Position numbers and translations under genes: made by a program. The notes below the pieces were generated by a model, which searched no databases, was not told the DNA's origin, and saw nothing but the letters and a program-made list of their open reading frames with translations. From positions 22,532 through 86,531 of the forward strand of contig JADBJK010000031.1 in NCBI GenBank assembly GCA_014874485.1: a stretch of DNA of 64,000 nt, given 5' to 3'. Numbering within the stretch: position 1 is the stretch's first letter; each line of letters begins with the position of its first letter. Below, in pieces: positions 4,349 to 14,967 of the stretch. Source of the stretch: Chloroflexota bacterium (GTDB lineage Bacteria; Chloroflexota; Anaerolineae; DTLA01).

Positions 4349-5125
4349 ATGGAGCGATTGAAAGGGAAGGTAGCCATCATCACCGGCTCGGCCATGGGCA
4401 TCGGCAAGGCCACGGCCCTGAAGTTCGCCCGCGAGGGCGCGAAGGTCGTCGCCTGCGATGTGGTCGCCGAGGCAGGCCAGGCCGTCGTGGACGAGATTGC
4501 CGCCATGGGCGGCGAGGCGTTCTTCGTCGCGGTGGACGTAACGTCCGCGGAATCCGTCCAGGCGCTGGTGGACACCGTGATGACCCGCTGGGGCCGCGTG
4601 GACATCCTGGTCAACAACGCGGGCATCACGCGCGACGCCCTGCTCGTCAAGGTCAAGGACGGCGAAGTGGTGGATCAGATGAGCGAGGCCGCCTTTGATG
4701 CCGTCGTCAACGTCAACCTGAAGGGCGTGTTCCTGTGCACGCGCGCTGTGGCCCCCATCATGATCCGCCAGGGCAGCGGCGTCATCCTCAACGCCGCCTC
4801 GGTCGTCGGCCTCTACGGCAACTTCGGCCAGACGAACTACGTGGCCACCAAGGCCGGCGTCATCGGCATGACGCGGGTGTGGGCGCGGGAACTGGGGCGC
4901 AAGGGCATCCGCGTGAACACCGTCGCCCCCGGCTTCATCCTGACCGACATGGTGAAGAAGATGCCCGAAAAGGTGCTCGCGTCCATGCAGGAGAAGGTGC
5001 CCCTGGGTCGGCTCGGCGAACCGGAGGACGTAGCCAACGCCTACGCCTGGCTCGCCAGCGATGAGGCATCTTATGTCAATGGCGCCGTCATCTCGGTGGA
5101 TGGCGGCATTGTCATCGGAACCTAA
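4349..5125 (+). CDS. Short-chain dehydrogenase/reductase, FabG-like
   Basis: The protein is 258 aa, a classical SDR. The cofactor motif is TGSAMGIG, followed by NNAG, the catalytic set Ser151-Tyr164-Lys168 (NAAS ... NYVATK) and the C-terminal PGFILTDM segment. Family members reduce 3-oxoacyl-ACP or 3-oxoacyl-CoA, or oxidise the hydroxyacyl form, with NAD(P)H. ATG 4349 has AAGGAG 8 bases upstream; the longer track ORF is not needed. Neighbours (KAS III homologue, CoA-transferase, MaoC hydratase) favour a role on a CoA thioester and not in housekeeping fatty-acid synthesis. Confidence 0.85.
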   Translation: MERLKGKVAIITGSAMGIGKATALKFAREGAKVVACDVVAEAGQAVVDEIAAMGGEAFFVAVDVTSAESVQALVDTVMTRWGRVDILVNNAGITRDALLVKVKDGEVVDQMSEAAFDAVVNVNLKGVFLCTRAVAPIMIRQGSGVILNAASVVGLYGNFGQTNYVATKAGVIGMTRVWARELGRKGIRVNTVAPGFILTDMVKKMPEKVLASMQEKVPLGRLGEPEDVANAYAWLASDEASYVNGAVISVDGGIVIGT

Positions 5126-5165: not shown

Positions 5166-6173
5166 ATGGCAAGATACGCAACCATCATCGGAACCGGCAG
5201 GTACCTGCCGCCCATTGAGCGAACCAACGAGCAGTTCAAGCAGGACATGATGGCCGTCAACCCTGCCCTGGGCGAGGTCGTGGACAAGTTTGAGGCGTCC
5301 ACCGGCATCAAGACGCGCTGGTATGCCGCCGACGACTGGGCCACGTCCGACCTGGCCGCCGAGGCCGCCAAGGACGCCCTGGCCGACGCGGGCATCAAGG
5401 CCGAAGACCTGGACTGGATTCTGTTGGGCACCGACTCGCCCGACTACATCACCCCCGCCACGTCGGTGGTGGTGCAGCACAAGATCGGCGCGGTCAACGC
5501 GGGCACGGTGGACGTGGGGTGCGCGTGCGCGTCGTTCCCCACAGGTTTGGCGCTGGGCGCGGGCCTCATCGCCACAAACCCCTACATCAAGTACATCCTG
5601 GTCATCGGCGCGTACATGATGCACAAACTGGCCGACTGGAAGACCGACGTGGTGTCGTTCTTCTATGGCGACGGCGCCGGCGCGGCGGTGCTCGCCGTCA
5701 GCGACAAGCCAGGCTTCGTCTGCTCCACCGCCTTCGCCGACGGATCCTACCACAAGCACTGGGGCATCTATTCGGGCGGGACCTACGAACCCGCCACGGT
5801 GGAATCCGTGCAGGCGGGGCGCACCAAAGTCCGCCTCATCACCCCCTTCCCGCCGGACGTGAACAACGTGGGCTGGCCCAAGCGCATGCGCGAACTCGCG
5901 GCCCACGGCAACTTTGACCTGCAGGACGTGGACATGGCCATCTTCACCCAGGTGCGCCTGAACTCCATCCAACTGGTCATGCAGGACCTGGGGCTGCCCA
6001 TTGAGCGGGCGCACTGGATCATGGACAAGTGGGGCTACACAGGCTCGGCGTGCCTGCCCATGTGCTTTGACGACGCGCGGAAACTCGGCAAGGTCAAGAG
6101 CGGCGATTTGGTAACCTTCGTCGGTTCCGGCGTCGGGTACAATCAGGCGGGCGCCGCCTTCATCATGCCGTAA
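5166..6173 (+). CDS. KAS III (FabH)-like thiolase-fold protein lacking catalytic His and Asn
   Basis: The protein is 335 aa, the normal FabH length. The active-site Cys is kept (DVGCACASF, Cys121). The FabH His motif HQAN is replaced by TQVR (Thr261 in the His position), and the Asn of GNTSAAS is replaced by Tyr291 (GYTGSAC). Known KAS III enzymes use Cys-His-Asn for decarboxylative condensation, so this protein probably does acyl transfer, a different C-C reaction, or binds an acyl group without condensation. Start ATG 5166 has a strong AGGAGG site. It sits between FabG-like and CoA-transferase genes in one operon. Confidence 0.75.
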   Translation: MARYATIIGTGRYLPPIERTNEQFKQDMMAVNPALGEVVDKFEASTGIKTRWYAADDWATSDLAAEAAKDALADAGIKAEDLDWILLGTDSPDYITPATSVVVQHKIGAVNAGTVDVGCACASFPTGLALGAGLIATNPYIKYILVIGAYMMHKLADWKTDVVSFFYGDGAGAAVLAVSDKPGFVCSTAFADGSYHKHWGIYSGGTYEPATVESVQAGRTKVRLITPFPPDVNNVGWPKRMRELAAHGNFDLQDVDMAIFTQVRLNSIQLVMQDLGLPIERAHWIMDKWGYTGSACLPMCFDDARKLGKVKSGDLVTFVGSGVGYNQAGAAFIMP

Positions 6174-6186
6174 CCAAGGTCTGCCT

Positions 6187-7548
6187 ATGACATCGGCCAA
6201 CGACTTGTACAAACGGAAACGCATCTCCATCCCCGACGCGGTGGGCCTGGTCCAGTCGCACCAGACCATCGGCGTGGCGATGGCCGCATCGGAGCCGCCC
6301 GGCCTGCTCACCGAACTAGGGCGGCAGGGCGAGCGCCTGGAAGACGTGCGCCTTTGGGTCTGCCTGCCCATGCGCGAGTACGAGGCGGTGCTCAGCCCGC
6401 GCATGGCCGGCCACATCTTCGTGGAGAACTGGTTCTACGGCGCGCCCGACCGCAAGGCCCATCCCCAGGGCCGCATGTCGTACATCCCCAACAACCTGCA
6501 CCAGGCGGCCCGCGACAAACTGGCGCGGGATGGCAAGGTCAACATCTTCTGGGGCACGGCCACCCCGCCCGACCGCTACGGCAACATGTCGCTGTCCCTC
6601 GGCCTCGTGATTGAGAAGGCGCTCCTGGAAGCCGCCGACCTGGTCGTGTTGGAGATCAACGAGAACCTGCCCTGGACACTGGGCGACACCCAGGTGCACA
6701 TCTCGCAGGTGGACTACGTCGTGGAGAACACCTGCCCCCTGGTGGAACTCCCCCCCGCCCCATCCACGCCAGAAGAGGAGGCCATCGGCGGGTACATCGC
6801 CGACCTCATTGAGGACGGAGCCACAATCCAACTGGGCATCGGCGGGATTCCCAACGCCATCACGCGGTACCTCATGAATCGGCGGGATTTGGGTGTCCAC
6901 ACCGAGATGTTCACCGACGGCATGGTGGACCTGTTTGAGGCGGGGGTCATCACGGGCAAGCGCAAGACCCTGTGGAAGGGCAAGATGGTCGGGGCCTTCG
7001 CGCTGGGCACGCAGAAACTGTATAACTTCATCCACAACAACGTGGGCGTGGAGTTCCAGCAGGGCAAGGTAACCAACGACCCCTACATCATCGGGCAGAA
7101 CTACAAGATGGTGAGCGTCAACACCGCCCTGCAGGTGGACATCATCGGGCAGGTCTGTTCGCAATCGCTGGGCGTGCGCCACTTCAGCGGCACGGGTGGG
7201 CAACTGGACACCCATCGCGGCGCCCAGCGTTCGCCCGGCGGGCGCGGCATCATCGCGCTCCGCTCCACAGCCCGCAACGGCACCGTGAGCACCATCGTGC
7301 CCATTCTGGAGCCTGGCGCGGAAGTAACCGTCCCGTCCCAGGACGTGGACACCATCGTTACCGAGTTTGGCGTTGCCGAGTTGAGGGGGCGGTGCGTGCG
7401 CGACCGCGCCGAGGCGCTGATTCGCATCGCCCATCCCGACTTCCGCGACTACCTGCGCGAGGAAGTGGAGCGGCTAGGCATCGTGCCGAGGCTGGTCGTG
7501 CCGGGCGTTCAGGTGGGCGAGGGCCAACAAGGGCAGCAGGCCAAGTGA
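6187..7548 (+). CDS. Acetyl-CoA hydrolase/transferase family protein (Cat2-like)
   Basis: The protein is 453 aa. The two-domain CoA-transferase architecture is visible, with QLGIGGIPNAI (oxyanion and CoA-binding region) and HTEMFTDG containing the catalytic Glu240 that forms the glutamyl-CoA intermediate. The C-terminal part has FSGTGGQLD and FGVAELRG, as in 4-hydroxybutyrate, butyryl and succinyl-CoA:acetate transferases. It probably activates an organic acid to its CoA ester for the neighbouring reductase, hydratase and KAS III-like protein. The acid is not identifiable. It starts 13 bases after the previous stop. Confidence 0.85.
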   Translation: MTSANDLYKRKRISIPDAVGLVQSHQTIGVAMAASEPPGLLTELGRQGERLEDVRLWVCLPMREYEAVLSPRMAGHIFVENWFYGAPDRKAHPQGRMSYIPNNLHQAARDKLARDGKVNIFWGTATPPDRYGNMSLSLGLVIEKALLEAADLVVLEINENLPWTLGDTQVHISQVDYVVENTCPLVELPPAPSTPEEEAIGGYIADLIEDGATIQLGIGGIPNAITRYLMNRRDLGVHTEMFTDGMVDLFEAGVITGKRKTLWKGKMVGAFALGTQKLYNFIHNNVGVEFQQGKVTNDPYIIGQNYKMVSVNTALQVDIIGQVCSQSLGVRHFSGTGGQLDTHRGAQRSPGGRGIIALRSTARNGTVSTIVPILEPGAEVTVPSQDVDTIVTEFGVAELRGRCVRDRAEALIRIAHPDFRDYLREEVERLGIVPRLVVPGVQVGEGQQGQQAK

Positions 7549-7587
7549 GGCCGATGTTGAGGAGACGAGTTCTCTGGAGGTTAGGCG

Positions 7588-7911
7588 ATGAGCACACAAA
7601 CGATTGTAGGACTCTGGGAAATCCCCGCGGGCCAGGAGTACGCCGGGCTGCGATTCCGCTACAACCCCGACGGAACCTTTGAGGCCGACTATCCGCCGAT
7701 GGGCATCAAGTCCAGCGGGACGTGGACCCTCACCGGCAACGAACTGGACATGGACCAGACGCAGCATACCCTGGGCTGGGTGGGCCTCTTCCGCGCGCTG
7801 GTGGACATCTCGGAGGACGGCCAGACCATGAAGGTGGCAGTCGCTGCTGGGCCAAACCTGCCCAGGCCGACGGACTTCACCAAGTACCGCCTGTACAAAC
7901 GGCTGGAGTGA
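7588..7911 (+). CDS. Small conserved-looking protein, possible lipocalin-like fold
   Basis: The protein is 107 aa with a strong ribosome site (CTGGAGG). The sequence begins IVGLWEIPAG, then alternates short strands and turns (RFRYNPDGTFEADYP, SGTWTLTGNELDM) and ends FTKYRLYKRLE. This is the pattern of small lipocalin-like or DUF beta-barrel proteins that bind a hydrophobic ligand. No catalytic motif, signal or membrane segment is visible. It lies inside the acyl-CoA cluster between the CoA-transferase and an alpha/beta hydrolase, so ligand binding in that pathway is a guess. Confidence 0.6.
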   Translation: MSTQTIVGLWEIPAGQEYAGLRFRYNPDGTFEADYPPMGIKSSGTWTLTGNELDMDQTQHTLGWVGLFRALVDISEDGQTMKVAVAAGPNLPRPTDFTKYRLYKRLE

Positions 7912-7945
7912 GCCGCGTCGAAATCCGGTCCAGACAGGAGTGGAC

Positions 7946-8743
7946 ATGAGCAGCATACAGGTCAACGGCGTAACGCTGCACTATGAGTGGCACGGGCCGG
8001 AGGACGCGCCGGTGGTCGTGCTGTCCAACGGCGTCCTCGCCAACACGGCCTCGTGGTTCAATCAGACGCCCGTGCTGAGCAAGCGGTTCCGGCTCCTGCT
8101 GTACGACTGTCGGGGGCAGGGCCGCTCGGAGCACCCCGCCGGCCCGTACAGCATGGAGATGCACGCGGACGACCTGGCGGCCCTTCTCCGCGCCCTGGGC
8201 GTGGAGAAGGCCCACATCGGCGGCATCTCCTACGGCGGCGAAATCAGCCTGCTGTTCGCCACCAAGTACCCGGAGATGACCCGCACCGTCGTGGCCATGA
8301 GCGCGGTGAGCGAGGTGCACCCGTTCCTCAAGGCCCAGATTGACCTGTGGGCGGCGGCAGCGAAGACGCGCGACCCGGCGCTGTTCTTCCAGGCAACGGT
8401 TACGCACAACTTCAGCGCGGGCTTCATCGCCGCCAACCAGGCCTTCCTGCAGGCGTCGGTGCCCCGCTTCGCGGCGCTGGACATTGACGCCGTGCTGGCG
8501 CTGCTGGATGCGTTCCAGCGCCTGGACATCACGGAGCAACTCTCGGCCATCACCGCACCCACGCTGCTCCTGTACGGCGCGGAGGACGCCCTGAAGCCAC
8601 CCGCCGTGTACGGGCGCATCATCGCCGAGCGGATTCCGCACGCCGAGTTTCTCACCGTCCCCGGTGCGGGGCACGTGGTCATCTGGGAGAAACCCGACGC
8701 CGTCAATTCTGCGCTCATGGGGTTCCTGCTCAAGCACTCGTAG
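7946..8743 (+). CDS. Alpha/beta hydrolase, 3-oxoadipate enol-lactonase-like
   Basis: The protein is 265 aa and cytoplasmic, with no signal peptide. The nucleophile elbow is GGISYGG (Ser95), the acid is in YGAEDALKPP and the His in PGAGHVVIW. The closest visible pattern is the PcaD/lactonase and carboxylesterase group (DCRGQGRS near the oxyanion hole). ATG 7946 is preferred over GTG 7940 because ACAGGAG ends just before it. Inside the acyl-CoA cluster it could hydrolyse a thioester, lactone or C-C bond of the pathway substrate. Confidence 0.8.
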   Translation: MSSIQVNGVTLHYEWHGPEDAPVVVLSNGVLANTASWFNQTPVLSKRFRLLLYDCRGQGRSEHPAGPYSMEMHADDLAALLRALGVEKAHIGGISYGGEISLLFATKYPEMTRTVVAMSAVSEVHPFLKAQIDLWAAAAKTRDPALFFQATVTHNFSAGFIAANQAFLQASVPRFAALDIDAVLALLDAFQRLDITEQLSAITAPTLLLYGAEDALKPPAVYGRIIAERIPHAEFLTVPGAGHVVIWEKPDAVNSALMGFLLKHS

Positions 8744-8775: not shown

Positions 8776-9207
8776 ATGCCAGACGAAATCCACATTCGGG
8801 ACGACTTTCAAATCGGCGAGACAGCGTCGTTCTCCAAGACCATCACGGAGTCGGACATCTACGCCTATGCGGGAATCAGCGGCGACTTCAACCCCGTCCA
8901 CGTGAACGCCGAGTTCGCCAAGAAGACCCGCTTCAAGGAGCGCATCGCCCACGGGATGCTGACCGCAGGGCTGGTTTCCGCCGTGCTGGGGATGAAACTG
9001 CCCGGCCCGGGCGCCATCTACCTCAGCCAGCAGATGGAGTTCCTGAAGCCCGTGCGAATCGGCGACACCATCACGGCCACGGCCGAGGTGCAGGCCTACA
9101 ACGCCGAGAAGCGCATCCTGACGTTGCGAACGACGTGCACCAACCAGCGCGGCGAGGCAGTCCTGGAGGGGCGCGCCGTCGTGATGATGGACCGCATTCA
9201 GGCGTGA
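8776..9207 (+). CDS. MaoC-like (R)-specific enoyl-CoA hydratase
   Basis: The protein is 143 aa, a single hot-dog fold. The hydratase-2 motif is present: AGISGDFNPVH with catalytic Asp and His, followed by AHGML. It would interconvert trans-2-enoyl-CoA and (R)-3-hydroxyacyl-CoA, complementing the FabG-like reductase upstream. It starts after AAGGAGG and is the last enzyme gene before the transporter genes. PhaJ-type and MaoC-type dehydratases cannot be separated by eye. Confidence 0.85.
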   Translation: MPDEIHIRDDFQIGETASFSKTITESDIYAYAGISGDFNPVHVNAEFAKKTRFKERIAHGMLTAGLVSAVLGMKLPGPGAIYLSQQMEFLKPVRIGDTITATAEVQAYNAEKRILTLRTTCTNQRGEAVLEGRAVVMMDRIQA

Positions 9208-9368
9208 TGCTGCCCGTGCTGTTCGGCTTCTGGACACGTTGTCCATGTCAACGCGAGCGCCGAAAGGGAAAGGGGGTGAGGCCATCCTGGCAAAGTGAGA
9301 CCGTGTGAAACCCGGCCCATCAAGTGCGTTTACCCAAAGCCATGTAGTTCTTGAGGAGGAAAAGAAAG

Positions 9369-10733
9369 ATGAAACGCCTGTTTGGTGTTCTGACTGTCCT
9401 GGCCCTGCTGGGCATGGTGCTGTCTGGCTGCGTGCAGAAGGCCACGCCTACGGCCCCGCCGCCGTATCAGGCCAAGCCCACGCCGACCCCGGAGCCCACC
9501 GTCCCGCCCACGCCGACCGAAGCCCCCAAACTCGGCCCCGTGCTGAAGATCGGGCAGATTTCCATGCTGTCCGGCGTCATGGCCCTCTACGGCCAGCAGC
9601 AGGTGCGCGGGTTCGCGCTTGGCCTGGAATACGCATCGGGCGGGAAGAAGGACGACCAGGGCCGCTGGATCATCGCCAACCGTCCGGTTGAGGTCATCAC
9701 CCGCGACGACGAAGGCAACCCCGAGAAAGGCGTGCAGATTGCCCGCGAGTTGATTGAGAAGGAAGGCGTGGAGATTCTGCAGGGCCCCGTGAGCAGCGCG
9801 GTCGCAGCGGCGCTCACCACCGTGGCGCTGGAGAACAAGATCATCCTCATGGTGGACCCTGCCGCGTCGGCCTTCATCACGGGCGAGTACTTCAACCCCT
9901 ACGTCTTCCGCACCAGCCGCACCAGTTTTGACGATACCCTCGTCATCGCCAAGTACCTGGTGGAGAACGTGGGCAAGACGTTCGCCCACATCGGCGTGGA
10001 CAACGCCTTCGGTCGTGGCAGCGGGGTGGCCCTGGCCTACTCGGTCGCCAAGTTCGGTGGCAAGGTCATCGCCGACATCTACGCCCCGCTGAACACCACC
10101 GACTTCACCCCGTACATCCAGCAGGCGATGGATTCCGGCGCCGAGTGCCTGTTCCTCACCTGGTCGGGCACGGGCTACGTAACCCTGTTCCAGCAACTGG
10201 GCGACCTGGGCGCGCTGGAGAAGATGCGCGTGGCCACCGGCTTCGGCGACAATGCCTCGTTCGCCGCAGTGTTCGGGACCGCTGTGGGCCAGATCGGTCT
10301 GAACGTCTACCACTACACTGTGCCCAAGAACCCGGTCAATGACTGGCTCGTCCAGCGGCACCTGGAACTCTACAATGAGCCGCCAGACCTGTTCACCGCG
10401 GGCGGCATGGCGTCGGCCATCGCCCTGGCGAAGGCACTGGAGAAGACCGGCGGCGACACCAGCGGCGACAAGATGATCGCGGCGCTGGAAGGGCTGATGT
10501 TTGAAGGCCCCAAGGGCACCTACTACATCCGCCCCGAGGACCATGTCTGCCTGCAACCGATGAACATCCTGAAACTGGTGGACATCAACCCGCCGAAGGA
10601 CGAGAAGGGCCGCCCGACGTACAAGTTCTTTGAGACGGTGTACGTCTCCAAGTACGACGAACTCGGCGTGCCCTGCACGCTCACCGGCCAGTACGCCGAC
10701 CGCTGCGGCAACCTGCCCAGGATCGGCCAGTAG
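9369..10733 (+). CDS. Branched-chain amino-acid-type ABC transporter substrate-binding lipoprotein
   Basis: The protein is 454 aa. The signal peptide ends in a lipobox LSGC (Cys21), followed by a Thr/Pro-rich linker of about 30 residues and a periplasmic-binding fold of the LivJ/AmiC type (VLKIGQISMLSGVMALYGQQ). ATG 9369 is chosen over 9351 because GAGGAGGA lies directly upstream. It is followed by two ATPases and two permeases, making a complete importer. Such receptors bind amino acids, but also urea, amides and aromatic or organic acids. Linkage to the acyl-CoA cluster suggests an organic acid ligand (inference). Confidence 0.9.
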   Translation: MKRLFGVLTVLALLGMVLSGCVQKATPTAPPPYQAKPTPTPEPTVPPTPTEAPKLGPVLKIGQISMLSGVMALYGQQQVRGFALGLEYASGGKKDDQGRWIIANRPVEVITRDDEGNPEKGVQIARELIEKEGVEILQGPVSSAVAAALTTVALENKIILMVDPAASAFITGEYFNPYVFRTSRTSFDDTLVIAKYLVENVGKTFAHIGVDNAFGRGSGVALAYSVAKFGGKVIADIYAPLNTTDFTPYIQQAMDSGAECLFLTWSGTGYVTLFQQLGDLGALEKMRVATGFGDNASFAAVFGTAVGQIGLNVYHYTVPKNPVNDWLVQRHLELYNEPPDLFTAGGMASAIALAKALEKTGGDTSGDKMIAALEGLMFEGPKGTYYIRPEDHVCLQPMNILKLVDINPPKDEKGRPTYKFFETVYVSKYDELGVPCTLTGQYADRCGNLPRIGQ

Positions 10734-10818: not shown

Positions 10819-11619
10819 ATGGCACCCGAAGCCGAAGAGCGCGAGATTATCCTGGAAGCGCGTAACCTGCGCAAGGAGTTCGGTGGCCTGGTGGCGGTGG
10901 ATGACGTGAGCATCCAGATACGCGCACGAACGCTCCACTCCATCATCGGCCCCAACGGCGCGGGCAAGACGACGCTGTTCAACCTGCTCAGCGGCACCAT
11001 GCCCCCCACCCGCGGGTCCGTGTTCTTCAAGGGCCGCGACATCACCCACTTGCCGCCGCACCGCATCGCACACCTGGGCCTGGGCCGCACCTTCCAGATC
11101 ACCAACATCTTCCCCAACCTCACCGTGCTGGAAAACGTGCGGCTGGGAGCGCAGGCCATGGGCCGCCACAACCTGCGCCTGCTCACCCACTCGGACAAGT
11201 ATACGCAGTACCTAGACCAGGCCGAACAAGTCATCGCCCAGGTGGGCCTTCGCGGGCGCGAGCACATGCTGGCCGCGAACCTGCCCCACGGCGACAAGCG
11301 CAAACTGGAACTCGGCATCATGCTGGCCGGGAACTTCGAGGTCCTCCTGCTGGACGAGCCGACCGCAGGGATGTCGTCCGAACAGGTACCGGCACTGTTG
11401 GAAATCATCCATAACATTCTCACATCGGGGAATCGCACCATCGTCCTGGTGGAGCATCGCATGGACATGGTGATGAGCATTTCGGACTTCATCACCGTGA
11501 TGCACCAGGGACGGGTGCTGGCCGAGGGAACGCCGCGCGAAATCGCGTCCAACGAGTTGGTCCAGAGCGCCTACCTCGGCGCATTGTACGGCGATTTGAC
11601 TGCCCAGGCGGAGAAGTAG
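10819..11619 (+). CDS. livG: ABC transporter ATP-binding protein, LivG-like
   Basis: The protein is 266 aa. Walker A is GPNGAGKTT and Walker B is LLLDEPTAG, with the switch His in VLVEHRMD. The usual LSGGQ signature is replaced by LPHGDKRKLELG, close to the LivG form LPYGxQR. ATG 10819 follows CCAGGAGAGG; the upstream part of the track ORF overlaps the hairpin and is not coding. It pairs with the LivF-like ATPase one base after its stop. Confidence 0.88.
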   Translation: MAPEAEEREIILEARNLRKEFGGLVAVDDVSIQIRARTLHSIIGPNGAGKTTLFNLLSGTMPPTRGSVFFKGRDITHLPPHRIAHLGLGRTFQITNIFPNLTVLENVRLGAQAMGRHNLRLLTHSDKYTQYLDQAEQVIAQVGLRGREHMLAANLPHGDKRKLELGIMLAGNFEVLLLDEPTAGMSSEQVPALLEIIHNILTSGNRTIVLVEHRMDMVMSISDFITVMHQGRVLAEGTPREIASNELVQSAYLGALYGDLTAQAEK

Positions 11620-11620
11620 C

Positions 11621-12349
11621 ATGGATGCCATTCTACAGGTTGAGAACATTCATACCTTCATCGGCCAGTTCCACATCCTGCAAGACGTGTCCCTGACGGT
11701 GGAACGCGGCAGCATCACGGTGCTCCTCGGCCGAAACGGCGCAGGCAAGACCACGACCCTCAAGTCCATCCTGGGCCTCACCCCGCCGAGCGAGGGCCGC
11801 GTCATCTTTGACGGGCAGGACATCCGGGGCAGGCGCGCCTTTGAAATCGCCGCCATGGGCATCGGGTACGTCCCCGAGCACCGCGCCATCTTCCGCGACC
11901 TCACCGTGGCCGAGAACCTGAAGATCGCCGAGCGGCGGCGCGGCGACCTGGACCGCAAGGCCGACTTCATCTTCGGCCTGTTCCCCGACCTGAAGCGGCT
12001 GTACCGCCTTCCGGGCAACCACCTGTCGGGCGGGCAGCAGCAGATGCTCGCCATCGCCCGCGCCCTGGTGCCCGACAACAAACTCCTGCTCATAGACGAG
12101 CCCAGCAACGGCCTCGCGCCCGTTCTCATAGAGCAGATGATGGAAGCCATACGCGGGTTGAGCGCCACGACGACCGTGCTCCTGGTGGAGCAGAACTTTA
12201 TCATGGCCAGCCAGTTGGCGCAGGCGTACTACATCCTGGATGATGGCAAGACCGTCCACAGCGGCGCGATGGCCGACCTGGTGAAGGACAAGGCACTCAT
12301 CCACCGATACCTGGGCGCTGTAGGGGAATCTGTCGGAGGTGAACGGTGA
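11621..12349 (+). CDS. livF: ABC transporter ATP-binding protein, LivF-like
   Basis: The protein is 242 aa. Walker A is GRNGAGKTT, the signature is LSGGQQQ, Walker B is LLIDEPSNG and the switch is LLVEQN, the typical LivF set. The gene begins one base after the livG-like stop and overlaps the permease start at GTGA, so the ATPases and permeases are translationally coupled. Confidence 0.9.
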   Translation: MDAILQVENIHTFIGQFHILQDVSLTVERGSITVLLGRNGAGKTTTLKSILGLTPPSEGRVIFDGQDIRGRRAFEIAAMGIGYVPEHRAIFRDLTVAENLKIAERRRGDLDRKADFIFGLFPDLKRLYRLPGNHLSGGQQQMLAIARALVPDNKLLLIDEPSNGLAPVLIEQMMEAIRGLSATTTVLLVEQNFIMASQLAQAYYILDDGKTVHSGAMADLVKDKALIHRYLGAVGESVGGER

Positions 12350-13833
12350 GGGTGAAGGCAATCTGGCAATACGGCAAGGTGTACATCATCCTTCTCATCG
12401 GGCTGATCATCCTCAGCGTCATCGGGTGGCGCGCTATGGGGCAGCAGTCCTTCGTGCGCACGGCCCTGTCCGGCCTGACGCTGGGCGCGCTGTACTTCAT
12501 GGTCGCCGCGGGCCTGACCATCATCTTCGGGCTGATGGACGTGCTCAACTTCGCCCACGGCGCGATGTTCATGATTGGCGCCTACGCCGGCTGGCAGTTC
12601 TACACCAACCCGACGTTCCTGTTCGGATTGGCTCCGCTGGTGCTCGCCCTGGTGGCCGGAATCGTGGTTACCCCGCTCATCCAGCCGCTGGCCATGCGCT
12701 GGGCCGTGCCCGCACGTTGGCAGCGGACACTGCGCGCGGTGGTCATCGTGGTCGCCGTTATCCTCATCATCGTTGCGCTGCTCGGCCTGGACGTTCGGGG
12801 GCTGGCCAAGACGGCGATGGTCGCCACCATGGTGGACCCGCTGGCCGAAGCCACACCCCAGGAGCCGCTGGCCGTGTTCTGGAAGCGCCCGCTCCTGTTC
12901 TTCCTGGCGGGGCTGCTCATCGCCCTGGCCCAGGCGCGCCCTGGCGACCGGACGCAGGTCATCCGCTCAGGTGCCGCGCCGCGGGCCATTGTCGCCCTCG
13001 TCGGCTTCGTGCTGCTGACCGTGGCGGCGACGCTGACCCGCGAATCGGGCGCCATCTCCGTGCTCAAGATGAACGCGGACGCCCGCTTCTTCCTGTCATT
13101 GGCCGCGGGTGCACTCATCGGCGCCGGCATCGGAGCCGCCATTGAAATCAGCCTGGTGCGCCCACTGTATGTGCGACCGACCTTCCTCATCCTGGCGACG
13201 ATGGGCCTGTCGTTCGTCCTGCGCGAGTTGACGCAGTTGCTGTGGGATCCCCTACCCTACGCCATGAGCCGGCCGCCGCTGTTCTCGCAGCCGGGCAAGG
13301 CCGCGTCCATACTGGAGTGGTTCTCCAAACACACGCTGACGGTGGAAATCATGGGCGTAACGTTCCCCAGTTACCGACTGTTCATCATCGCCCTGGGCCT
13401 TGCGATGTTCATCCTGCTCATGCTCGTGATGAACTACTCGCGCCTGGGCATGACCATCCGCGCGGGCGTGCAGGACCGCGACATGGTGGAGGCGCTGGGC
13501 ATCAACGTGCGGCGCGTCTTCACGTTGGTCTTCGCCCTGGGCGCGGGACTGGCGGCGCTCGGCGGCATCGGCGCAGCGCCCTTCGCGCCGGTGGAGCCGG
13601 TCATGGGCGACCGATTCCAGATGCAGGGGTTCATCACCGTGGTCATCGGCGGGATGGGGAGTTACAGCGGCGCGGCCATCGGCGCGCTGCTGCTGGGCCT
13701 GGCGCGCGCGTTCGGCGACTTCCTCGCGCTGAAGTTCAGCCTCACCCCCGCCGTGTCCGAAGCGTCCACCGTCATCATCATGGCGCTGGTGTTGTTGCTG
13801 CGGCCCGCCGGGCTGTTCGGAAAAAAGGAGTAG
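12346..13833 (+). CDS. livH: ABC transporter permease, LivH-like with a large insertion
   Basis: The protein is 495 aa, while LivH proteins are usually around 300. The first 90 residues (LGALYFMVAAGLTIIFGLMDVLNFAHGA) and the part after residue 265 (EISLVRPLY, LGINVRRVFTLVFALGAGLAALGG) match LivH. About 170 residues between them add extra hydrophobic segments and a charged loop. GTG 12346 overlaps the previous stop; a second GTG at 12352 is possible. It forms the membrane pore with the LivM-like protein. Confidence 0.85.
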   Translation: MRVKAIWQYGKVYIILLIGLIILSVIGWRAMGQQSFVRTALSGLTLGALYFMVAAGLTIIFGLMDVLNFAHGAMFMIGAYAGWQFYTNPTFLFGLAPLVLALVAGIVVTPLIQPLAMRWAVPARWQRTLRAVVIVVAVILIIVALLGLDVRGLAKTAMVATMVDPLAEATPQEPLAVFWKRPLLFFLAGLLIALAQARPGDRTQVIRSGAAPRAIVALVGFVLLTVAATLTRESGAISVLKMNADARFFLSLAAGALIGAGIGAAIEISLVRPLYVRPTFLILATMGLSFVLRELTQLLWDPLPYAMSRPPLFSQPGKAASILEWFSKHTLTVEIMGVTFPSYRLFIIALGLAMFILLMLVMNYSRLGMTIRAGVQDRDMVEALGINVRRVFTLVFALGAGLAALGGIGAAPFAPVEPVMGDRFQMQGFITVVIGGMGSYSGAAIGALLLGLARAFGDFLALKFSLTPAVSEASTVIIMALVLLLRPAGLFGKKE

Positions 13834-13836
13834 GCC

Positions 13837-14967
13837 ATGGCATCGCAATCCAAATCCCCCAAGCGATTCGCCGCATTGGATTCCTTGCTCCAGGGCCTGA
13901 AGCGGTCGCGCGGCTCGCTCCTCGTGCTGGCCGTGCTGATCCTCTTCCCGTTCGTCTTCGCCCGCATCACGGGCACGTCGGTGAACGAGGGGCCCGCCAA
14001 GTACTGGCAAGGCCAGTTCATCGCCGTGTTCATCATGGCCATCTTCGCCATGTCCTACGACCTGCTGCTGGGCTACACCGGCATTCTCACCTTCGGCCAC
14101 GCGGCCTTCTTCGGCGGCGGGGCCTACACCATGGCGCTGTTTCTCACCCATGTGGCCCCCCGCTTCGTGAAGACGTACCGCGTTAGCCTTCCGGGCGGGC
14201 TGGATGTAACGGAGCCCAGCGCATTCCTGCTGGCGATTCTCCTGGTGGTTGTGGTTTCGCTTGTCCTGGGGCTGCTGTTCAGCATCGTCTCCGTGCGCGT
14301 GAAAGGCGTGTACTTCGCCATCATCACGCTGGCCATGGCCGAGGCGATCCACATCCTGTCCAAGGCCACGGACTTCGTGAAGTGGACCGGGGCCGATGAG
14401 GGCCTCCACGGCGTGCCTGTGCCCGCCTGGATCAACCCGACGCAGTACCGCCTGCGGTTCTACTTCATCGCACTGGCCTTCGCGGTGGTCATGTACTGGC
14501 TCGCCCGCCGCATCGTCAACTCCCCGACGGGGCGCATCTTCGTCGCGCTGCGCGAGAACGAAAGCCGCGCGCGGATGATCGGCTACAACCCCGCGCTGTA
14601 CCGCACGATTGCGTTCGTGGTCTCGGCGCTCATCGCGGGGCTGGCGGGCGCGCTGTTCTCCGTCTGGACGGTCAGCGCCACGCCGTCCATGACCTCGGCG
14701 GTTACCACGGTGAACGCCCTCATCATGACCATCCTCGGCGGGATGGGAACACTGGTCGGGCCGATGCTCGGCGCTGCGGTGCTGGAGTTCTTCGGGCAGT
14801 TCCTGTACCAGTGGTTCGGAGCGCGTTGGCCGCTGGTCTTCGGCATCATCTTCATCGTGCTCGTGATGTTCCTCCCCTACGGCATCGTGGGCACGTGGCG
14901 ACTGCGCAGCGCCCAGTGGAAGCGCCGCTGGAGCCTGCGGAAGCAGCGCGCCGCCGCTCAGGAATAG
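13837..14967 (+). CDS. livM: ABC transporter permease, LivM-like
   Basis: The protein is 376 aa and multi-spanning. The LivM signature YDLLLGYTGILTFGHAAFFGGGAY is present in part near residue 70, and the cytoplasmic coupling loop ALRENESRARMIGYN is near residue 230. It starts 4 bases after the livH-like stop behind AAGGAGTAGG. It completes the importer; a terminator-like hairpin lies 35 bp downstream. Confidence 0.9.
   Translation: MASQSKSPKRFAALDSLLQGLKRSRGSLLVLAVLILFPFVFARITGTSVNEGPAKYWQGQFIAVFIMAIFAMSYDLLLGYTGILTFGHAAFFGGGAYTMALFLTHVAPRFVKTYRVSLPGGLDVTEPSAFLLAILLVVVVSLVLGLLFSIVSVRVKGVYFAIITLAMAEAIHILSKATDFVKWTGADEGLHGVPVPAWINPTQYRLRFYFIALAFAVVMYWLARRIVNSPTGRIFVALRENESRARMIGYNPALYRTIAFVVSALIAGLAGALFSVWTVSATPSMTSAVTTVNALIMTILGGMGTLVGPMLGAAVLEFFGQFLYQWFGARWPLVFGIIFIVLVMFLPYGIVGTWRLRSAQWKRRWSLRKQRAAAQE

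Follow-up and report, generated by a model that had tools for sequence, protein, structure and literature searches.

A clade of KAS III-fold proteins with Thr and Tyr in place of the His/Asn dyad, encoded in acid-activation operons and possibly redirected to non-decarboxylating chemistry

The gene at positions 5166..6173 (+) of a 64,000-nt stretch of DNA from a Chloroflexota bacterium (GCA_014874485.1, JADBJK010000031.1, positions 22,532–86,531 of the forward strand; the whole stretch is referred to below as the window) encodes a protein of the KAS III fold in which Thr and Tyr occupy the places of the FabH His/Asn dyad. We refer to this protein, and to its relatives with the same replacements, as T/Y-KSIII. 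Judged by their sequences, the T/Y proteins are a large branch of KAS III without a family name, and their genes are accompanied in several phyla by genes for CoA activation of acids. Our tentative reading, which we favor over the others considered but hold with less than even confidence, is that T/Y-KSIII would be a CoA-thioester enzyme of carboxylic-acid breakdown, carrying an acyl group on Cys121 and making or breaking a C–C bond without decarboxylation. Behind it we rank, from most to least likely, plain acyl transfer, a role as a heteromer partner, and the unchanged FabH reaction. The earlier note discussed below had likewise left the choice between acyl transfer and novel C–C chemistry on an imported acid.

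The open reading frame runs from an ATG at 5166 to a stop codon ending at 6173, encodes 335 amino acids, and is preceded by a good ribosome-binding site (CAGGAGGAAAGCATATATG). Pfam assigns ACP_syn_III and ACP_syn_III_C to the product, an AlphaFold2 model built on an alignment of 55 sequences reaches a mean pLDDT of 89 and a pTM of 0.90, and the top solved folds found by Foldseek with this model are all FabH. Alignment with E. coli FabH, the genome's own FabH, and FabH chains from the PDB places Cys121 (the nucleophile position; codon 5526..5528, +) at Cys112 of the E. coli enzyme, Thr261 (5946..5948, +) at His244, with TQVR for HQAN, and Tyr291 (6036..6038, +) at Asn274, with GYTGSAC for GNTSAAS. 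The description in an earlier note made from the DNA alone, a KAS III homologue that keeps its Cys and lacks the FabH His and Asn, is thus borne out at all three positions. The same genome also carries a canonical FabH with HQAN and GNTS motifs, and the T/Y-KSIII copy is therefore an extra one. Relative to its nearest relative (L004), the window gene shows a Ka of 0.0026, a Ks of 0.102, and a Ka/Ks of 0.026.

A scan of GTDB contigs yielded 73 loci at 60–99% identity, mostly from Anaerolineae and Holophagaceae with a few from Bacillota, and searches of genomes from three phyla brought in more remote members (34–50% identity). A set of 111 distinct relatives drawn from Chloroflexota, Acidobacteriota, and Bacillota shows no variation at Asp90 (within GTDSPDY; codon 5433..5435, +), Cys121, Tyr291, or Ser321, and 110 of its members have Thr at position 261, the other having Asn. 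Since the set was chosen by Tyr at position 291, the invariance of that residue is true by definition, and a tree built without the motif columns serves as the independent test. In this tree the T/Y sequences form one clade (support 99/98), apart from FabH (100/97) and from the NCBIfam family PRK06840 (100/100). The Thr/Tyr replacement is neither chance nor private decay. A branch with support 100/98 separates T/Y and PRK06840 proteins together from FabH, although the long PRK06840 stem makes this pairing less certain than the T/Y clade. Of the genomes sampled, T/Y-type genes occur by score, the motif having been read only in members made into loci, in about 20 of the 300 from Bacillota, in up to 24 of the 199 from Acidobacteriota, and in about 13 of the 301 from Chloroflexota. 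In one T/Y gene (L181 from 7793, genome G709), homology ends after approximately residue 193, through a frameshift or an assembly error.

Beyond the dyad, several other features of FabH have been lost. The CoA clamp of FabH consists of Trp32 and Arg151, and its ACP-docking basic residues are Lys214 and Arg249. Among 94 aligned T/Y sequences, Trp32 has become Lys in 80 and Arg151 has become Asp in 81; Arg249, Lys214, and Phe87 are also replaced, Thr81 corresponds to Asp90, and Phe304 to Ser. In FabH, the Cys accepts the acyl group, and His244 and Asn274 act in malonyl decarboxylation (PMC4807248); in the related PqsC, the H269A variant is acylated at 76.6 per second as against 86.9, so that the His is barely needed for this step (PMC4807248). 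From these dyad roles and kinetics, acyl loading on Cys121 would be expected to survive in the T/Y proteins and malonyl decarboxylation to be lost; our literature search found no kinetics of FabH mutants. The contention of the earlier note that a decarboxylative Claisen condensation needs the missing residues accords with these published roles, and the loss of the ACP-docking residues adds to it.

It is very improbable, in our estimation, that T/Y-KSIII is still a decarboxylating β-ketoacyl synthase of the FabH kind that works with an alternative dyad. Thr and Tyr could supply hydrogen bonds, PqsC functions without the Asn (PMC4807248), and the best NCBIfam scores of the window protein are to fabH (158 bits) and PRK09352 (181 bits). 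Both scores, however, fall below the family cut-offs (292.1 and 249, respectively), both dyad residues are replaced together with those for ACP docking, the genome has a normal FabH, and no ACP, malonyl transferase, or acetyl-CoA carboxylase gene is present among the operon genes examined. More broadly, no curated NCBIfam equivalog accepts the window protein or the other T/Y members tried, with one Acidobacteriota sister exceeding the cut-off of the broad PRK09352 subfamily (272.8 bits). The window protein likewise does not reach the cut-offs of PRK06840 (NF005308; 151 bits, cut-off 315), of the HMG-CoA synthase models (24–55 bits, cut-offs 244–360), or of PRK09258, a model that we take to cover OleA (91.7 bits, cut-off 285).

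As to another His/Asn pair in the active site, which the earlier note had named as counting against its reading, no His is conserved in at least 95% of the 111 sequences, and N21 and N233 are the only Asn residues that are, which makes a compensating pair unlikely. H196 and H198 (YHKHWGIY) appear invariant in the close family but are present in only 84/111 and 68/111 sequences across the clade, and H283 is found in 103/111, the others having Thr (7) or Phe (1), so that none qualifies as a strict replacement; N233 or H283 may nonetheless have some role in the site. In a profile alignment, Asp90 falls opposite Glu81 of the archaeal-type HMG-CoA synthase (HMGCS) encoded in the same genome. This Glu81 lies 32 positions before Cys113, a spacing shared by the catalytic pair Glu82/Cys114 in the M. 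thermolithotrophicus enzyme (PMC6392133); the catalytic residues of human HMGCS1 are Glu95, Cys129, and His264 (PMC9458500). The pairing of HMGCS Cys113 with Cys119 that hhalign produced through a gap was set aside, as the D-x4-C spacing common to FabH, HMGCS, and the T/Y family selects Cys121. Judged from sequence, the T/Y site looks like a combination of Cys, an acidic residue, Thr, and Tyr.

The window gene is part of a run of genes on one strand with short gaps. A FabG-like short-chain dehydrogenase (SDR) of the classical type (4349..5125, +), a conserved upstream neighbor, precedes it, and it is followed by a CoA-transferase of the 4-hydroxybutyrate/butyrate:acetate family (6187..7548, +, by domain and family matches), a 107-aa protein without Pfam or NCBIfam match (7588..7911, +), an α/β-hydrolase resembling 3-oxoadipate enol-lactonase at sub-cut-off scores in Pfam and NCBIfam (7940..8743, +), and a MaoC-type enoyl-CoA hydratase (8776..9207, +) matching the N-terminal part of PRK08190. 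A Liv-type transporter completes the set: a LivJ-type substrate-binding lipoprotein (9351..10733, +, by NCBIfam), LivG-type and LivF-type ABC ATPases (10819..11619, +, identified from its translation and by operon comparison, and 11621..12349, +), and LivH-type and LivM-type permeases (12346..13833 and 13837..14967, both +). The nearest solved structures to the LivJ-type protein, 3nnd and 3n0x, carry no annotation beyond that of possible ABC substrate-binding proteins; some further LivJ relatives in the structure list presumably bind aromatic acids, which we treat as a lead only. The operon contains no second thiolase-superfamily enzyme. Just upstream of the window lies a CODH-like cluster with the catalytic subunit of an anaerobic CO dehydrogenase (750 bits) and a CooF-like ferredoxin (L113, 12425–14603), to which a FAD/NAD reductase at 193–1509 of the window apparently also belongs.

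To describe the surroundings of T/Y genes elsewhere, neighbors were counted by tblastn against reference proteins, a procedure that can miss diverged genes, with clade labels taken from locus numbers and record titles and gene calls in high-GC loci made by simple ORF rules. Within the 30 close Chloroflexota loci that have at least 5 kb on each side, the CoA-transferase, the SDR, and the hydrolase are each present in 30, LivJ in 29, an SCPx-type thiolase with a DUF35 protein in 24, the 107-aa protein in 23, and a MalT-like regulator in 22. A CoA-transferase or AMP-forming ligase lies within 9 kb in all 30 of these loci, in 5/5 sister loci of Chloroflexota, in 8/9 Acidobacteriota loci outside Holophagaceae, and in 10/10 from Bacillota; 7 of 10 Holophagaceae loci have no CoA activator within that distance. 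In the distant Chloroflexota (5/5) and the non-Holophagaceae Acidobacteriota (8/9), an AMP-forming acyl-CoA ligase replaces the CoA-transferase. The constant companions of the T/Y gene are an importer, an enzyme making CoA thioesters, and a hydrolase; no importer was seen near the Acidobacteriota sister genes. The FabG-like, CoA-transferase, hydrolase, and MaoC surroundings to which the earlier note had drawn attention are thereby recognizable as a conserved operon for acid import and CoA activation, which recurs around relatives in other phyla. The operon of Chloroflexota bacterium ZRK35 (L140; CP069395.1) is located on a 180-kb plasmid typed as non-mobilizable. Two familiar operon types were considered and rejected. 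In one locus (L110, 3293–5068) a PHA synthase gene (PhaC_N, 221 bits) sits between the SDR and CoA-transferase genes, and PhaC was found in this locus only, which speaks against a PHA synthesis locus. An Ole-type operon (KAS III, AMP enzyme, hydrolase, and SDR) does not match either: the AMP enzymes look like ordinary acyl-CoA ligases by family models and PDB comparison, the hydrolases are PcaD- or esterase-like, the SDR is of the classical FabG type, and the OleA-like model scores low.

The constancy of the α/β-hydrolases bears on the possibility, which we consider unlikely, that T/Y-KSIII is purely an acyltransferase or thioesterase-like enzyme whose Cys121 passes a CoA-derived acyl group to water or an oxygen, nitrogen, or sulfur acceptor, without C–C chemistry. 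Such a role fits a protein that has lost the decarboxylation dyad but kept its Cys, and KAS III-fold proteins that have dispensed with the Claisen step exist in CerJ and ChlB3 (PMC9573744). Those enzymes, however, activate their Cys through a His-Asp pair, and the T/Y clade has no conserved His; moreover, the invariant HMGCS-like Asp90 would be unnecessary for simple acyl transfer, and no constant gene for making an acceptor was seen near the T/Y genes.

A second thiolase-superfamily enzyme (the SCPx thiolase with DUF35, BktB, or PRK06840) is common near T/Y genes but not constant. The SCPx thiolase matches the archaeal HMGCS-complex type NF053570 at 416–424 bits, below the cut-off of 600; in L005 (11457–13143) and in the 24 of 30 close Chloroflexota operons that have them, it and the DUF35 gene are inserted between the CoA-transferase and transporter genes. 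Bacillota loci typically have the order Liv genes, hydrolase, PRK06840, CoA-transferase, T/Y-KSIII, and three others (L072, L045, L184) have CoA-transferase, T/Y-KSIII, BktB thiolase. PRK06840 genes occur in 6 of 7 Bacillota sister loci (among the PRK06840 genes beside T/Y genes are L173 9771–10802, L174 7060–8118, L177 10343–11368, L178 5837–6877, and L180 10602–11627) and, in Geothrix (L049, approximately 6995–7915), directly upstream of the T/Y gene, with 378.9 bits against a cut-off of 315. PRK06840 is a second rebuilt KAS III and possibly a partner of the T/Y protein. These neighbors raise the prospect that T/Y-KSIII is mainly a partner subunit in a heteromer, with the chemistry performed by the PRK06840, SCPx thiolase plus DUF35, or BktB protein, as PqsB is in PqsBC and PhlA in PhlABC. 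The grouping with PRK06840 against FabH and the match of gene types in the 24 of 30 operons to the archaeal HMGCS/thiolase/DUF35 complex agree with this, yet we find it improbable: PqsB has lost all catalytic residues (PMC4807248) and PhlA lacks Cys and Glu (PMC6392133), whereas the T/Y Cys and Asp are invariant in 111/111, and several operons, the window's among them, have no such partner nearby. An obligate thiolase/DUF35 partner was rejected in view of its absence from the window, L004, L037–L040, and L110.

Under the favored reading of a non-decarboxylating C–C step, an acid would be imported by the Liv-type transporter or released by the α/β-hydrolase, and would be converted to a CoA thioester by the neighboring CoA-transferase (or, in other lineages, the AMP-forming ligase). 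T/Y-KSIII would load the acyl group on Cys121, and the second half-reaction would proceed without malonyl decarboxylation, with Asp90 and Tyr291 most likely providing the acid-base function for reversible Claisen or aldol chemistry and Thr261 as a putative hydrogen-bond donor. We judge this likeliest on account of the HMGCS-like acid at position 90, Tyr291, the missing ACP-docking face, and the CoA-activating neighbor; the direction of the reaction is one we infer, and the protein would serve acid breakdown rather than fatty-acid synthesis. As operons without any second thiolase exist (the window, L110, and L105–L108), the T/Y protein itself may supply the C–C step there. Counting against the reading, Asp is shorter than Glu, HMGCS also relies on His264 (PMC9458500), whose counterpart is missing, Holophagaceae often have no CoA activator within 9 kb, and the 24 of 30 close Chloroflexota operons already hold a thiolase for a retro-Claisen step, which argues that the T/Y protein acts otherwise in them. 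The broader proposal of a dedicated catabolic KAS III branch, performing C–C chemistry on CoA thioesters at a Cys-Asp-Thr-Tyr site with neither malonyl decarboxylation nor His/Asn and paired in some lineages with PRK06840, strikes us as rather doubtful.

By default, KAS III enzymes are annotated as fatty-acid initiators. The T/Y gene product in CP069395.1 is labeled ketoacyl-ACP synthase III, as is the whole clade, which lacks the residues that would justify the label. The clade may instead mark an uncharacterized route of acid degradation in anaerobes, both cultured and uncultured (Bellilinea, Geothrix), and it gives an example, accessible to experiment, of a ketosynthase fold redirected to other chemistry. 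A literature search found no paper on PRK06840 or on the T/Y operon.

Among characterized systems, FabH shares with T/Y-KSIII its fold, length, Cys position, and glycine-rich C-terminal loop, and differs in having His244, Asn274, Thr81, and Phe304 where T/Y-KSIII has Thr, Tyr, Asp, and Ser, respectively, in the loss of Trp32, Arg151, and Arg249 from the T/Y side, and in gene context, the T/Y gene lying outside a fatty-acid-synthesis operon. The nearest clade, PRK06840 (named '3-oxoacyl-ACP synthase'), likewise lacks the canonical dyad, keeps the Cys, and is encoded beside T/Y genes in Bacillota and in Geothrix, but in place of the Tyr and Asp of the T/Y proteins it has His at the position of the Asn (11/11) and mostly Glu at position 90 (8/11). 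T/Y-KSIII resembles HMGCS in having an acidic residue where the latter has its catalytic Glu, and many T/Y operons include an archaeal-type thiolase and DUF35 protein as in the archaeal complex; T/Y-KSIII, however, has no catalytic His, carries Asp instead of Glu, and is closer to FabH in sequence. A separate bacterial copy of the archaeal-type HMGCS/thiolase/DUF35 set is present elsewhere in the same genome (L112, 7865–10514, contig C10). CerJ and ChlB3, which share the fold and lack Claisen chemistry, use Cys-His-Asp (PMC9573744), unlike the T/Y clade. PqsBC pairs a FabH relative that has lost the Asn, PqsC, with a degenerate partner (PMC4807248); PqsC keeps His269, whereas the T/Y proteins keep their own Cys and have lost both dyad residues. 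Finally, the SCP-2-type aldolases Ltp2 and Sal, which act with DUF35 proteins, are thiolase-superfamily enzymes turned to Tyr-based chemistry (PMC12329534), but they are of the SCP-2-thiolase type, act on steroid side chains, and carry their Tyr in YDHF or YDCY, a motif unlike that of T/Y-KSIII.
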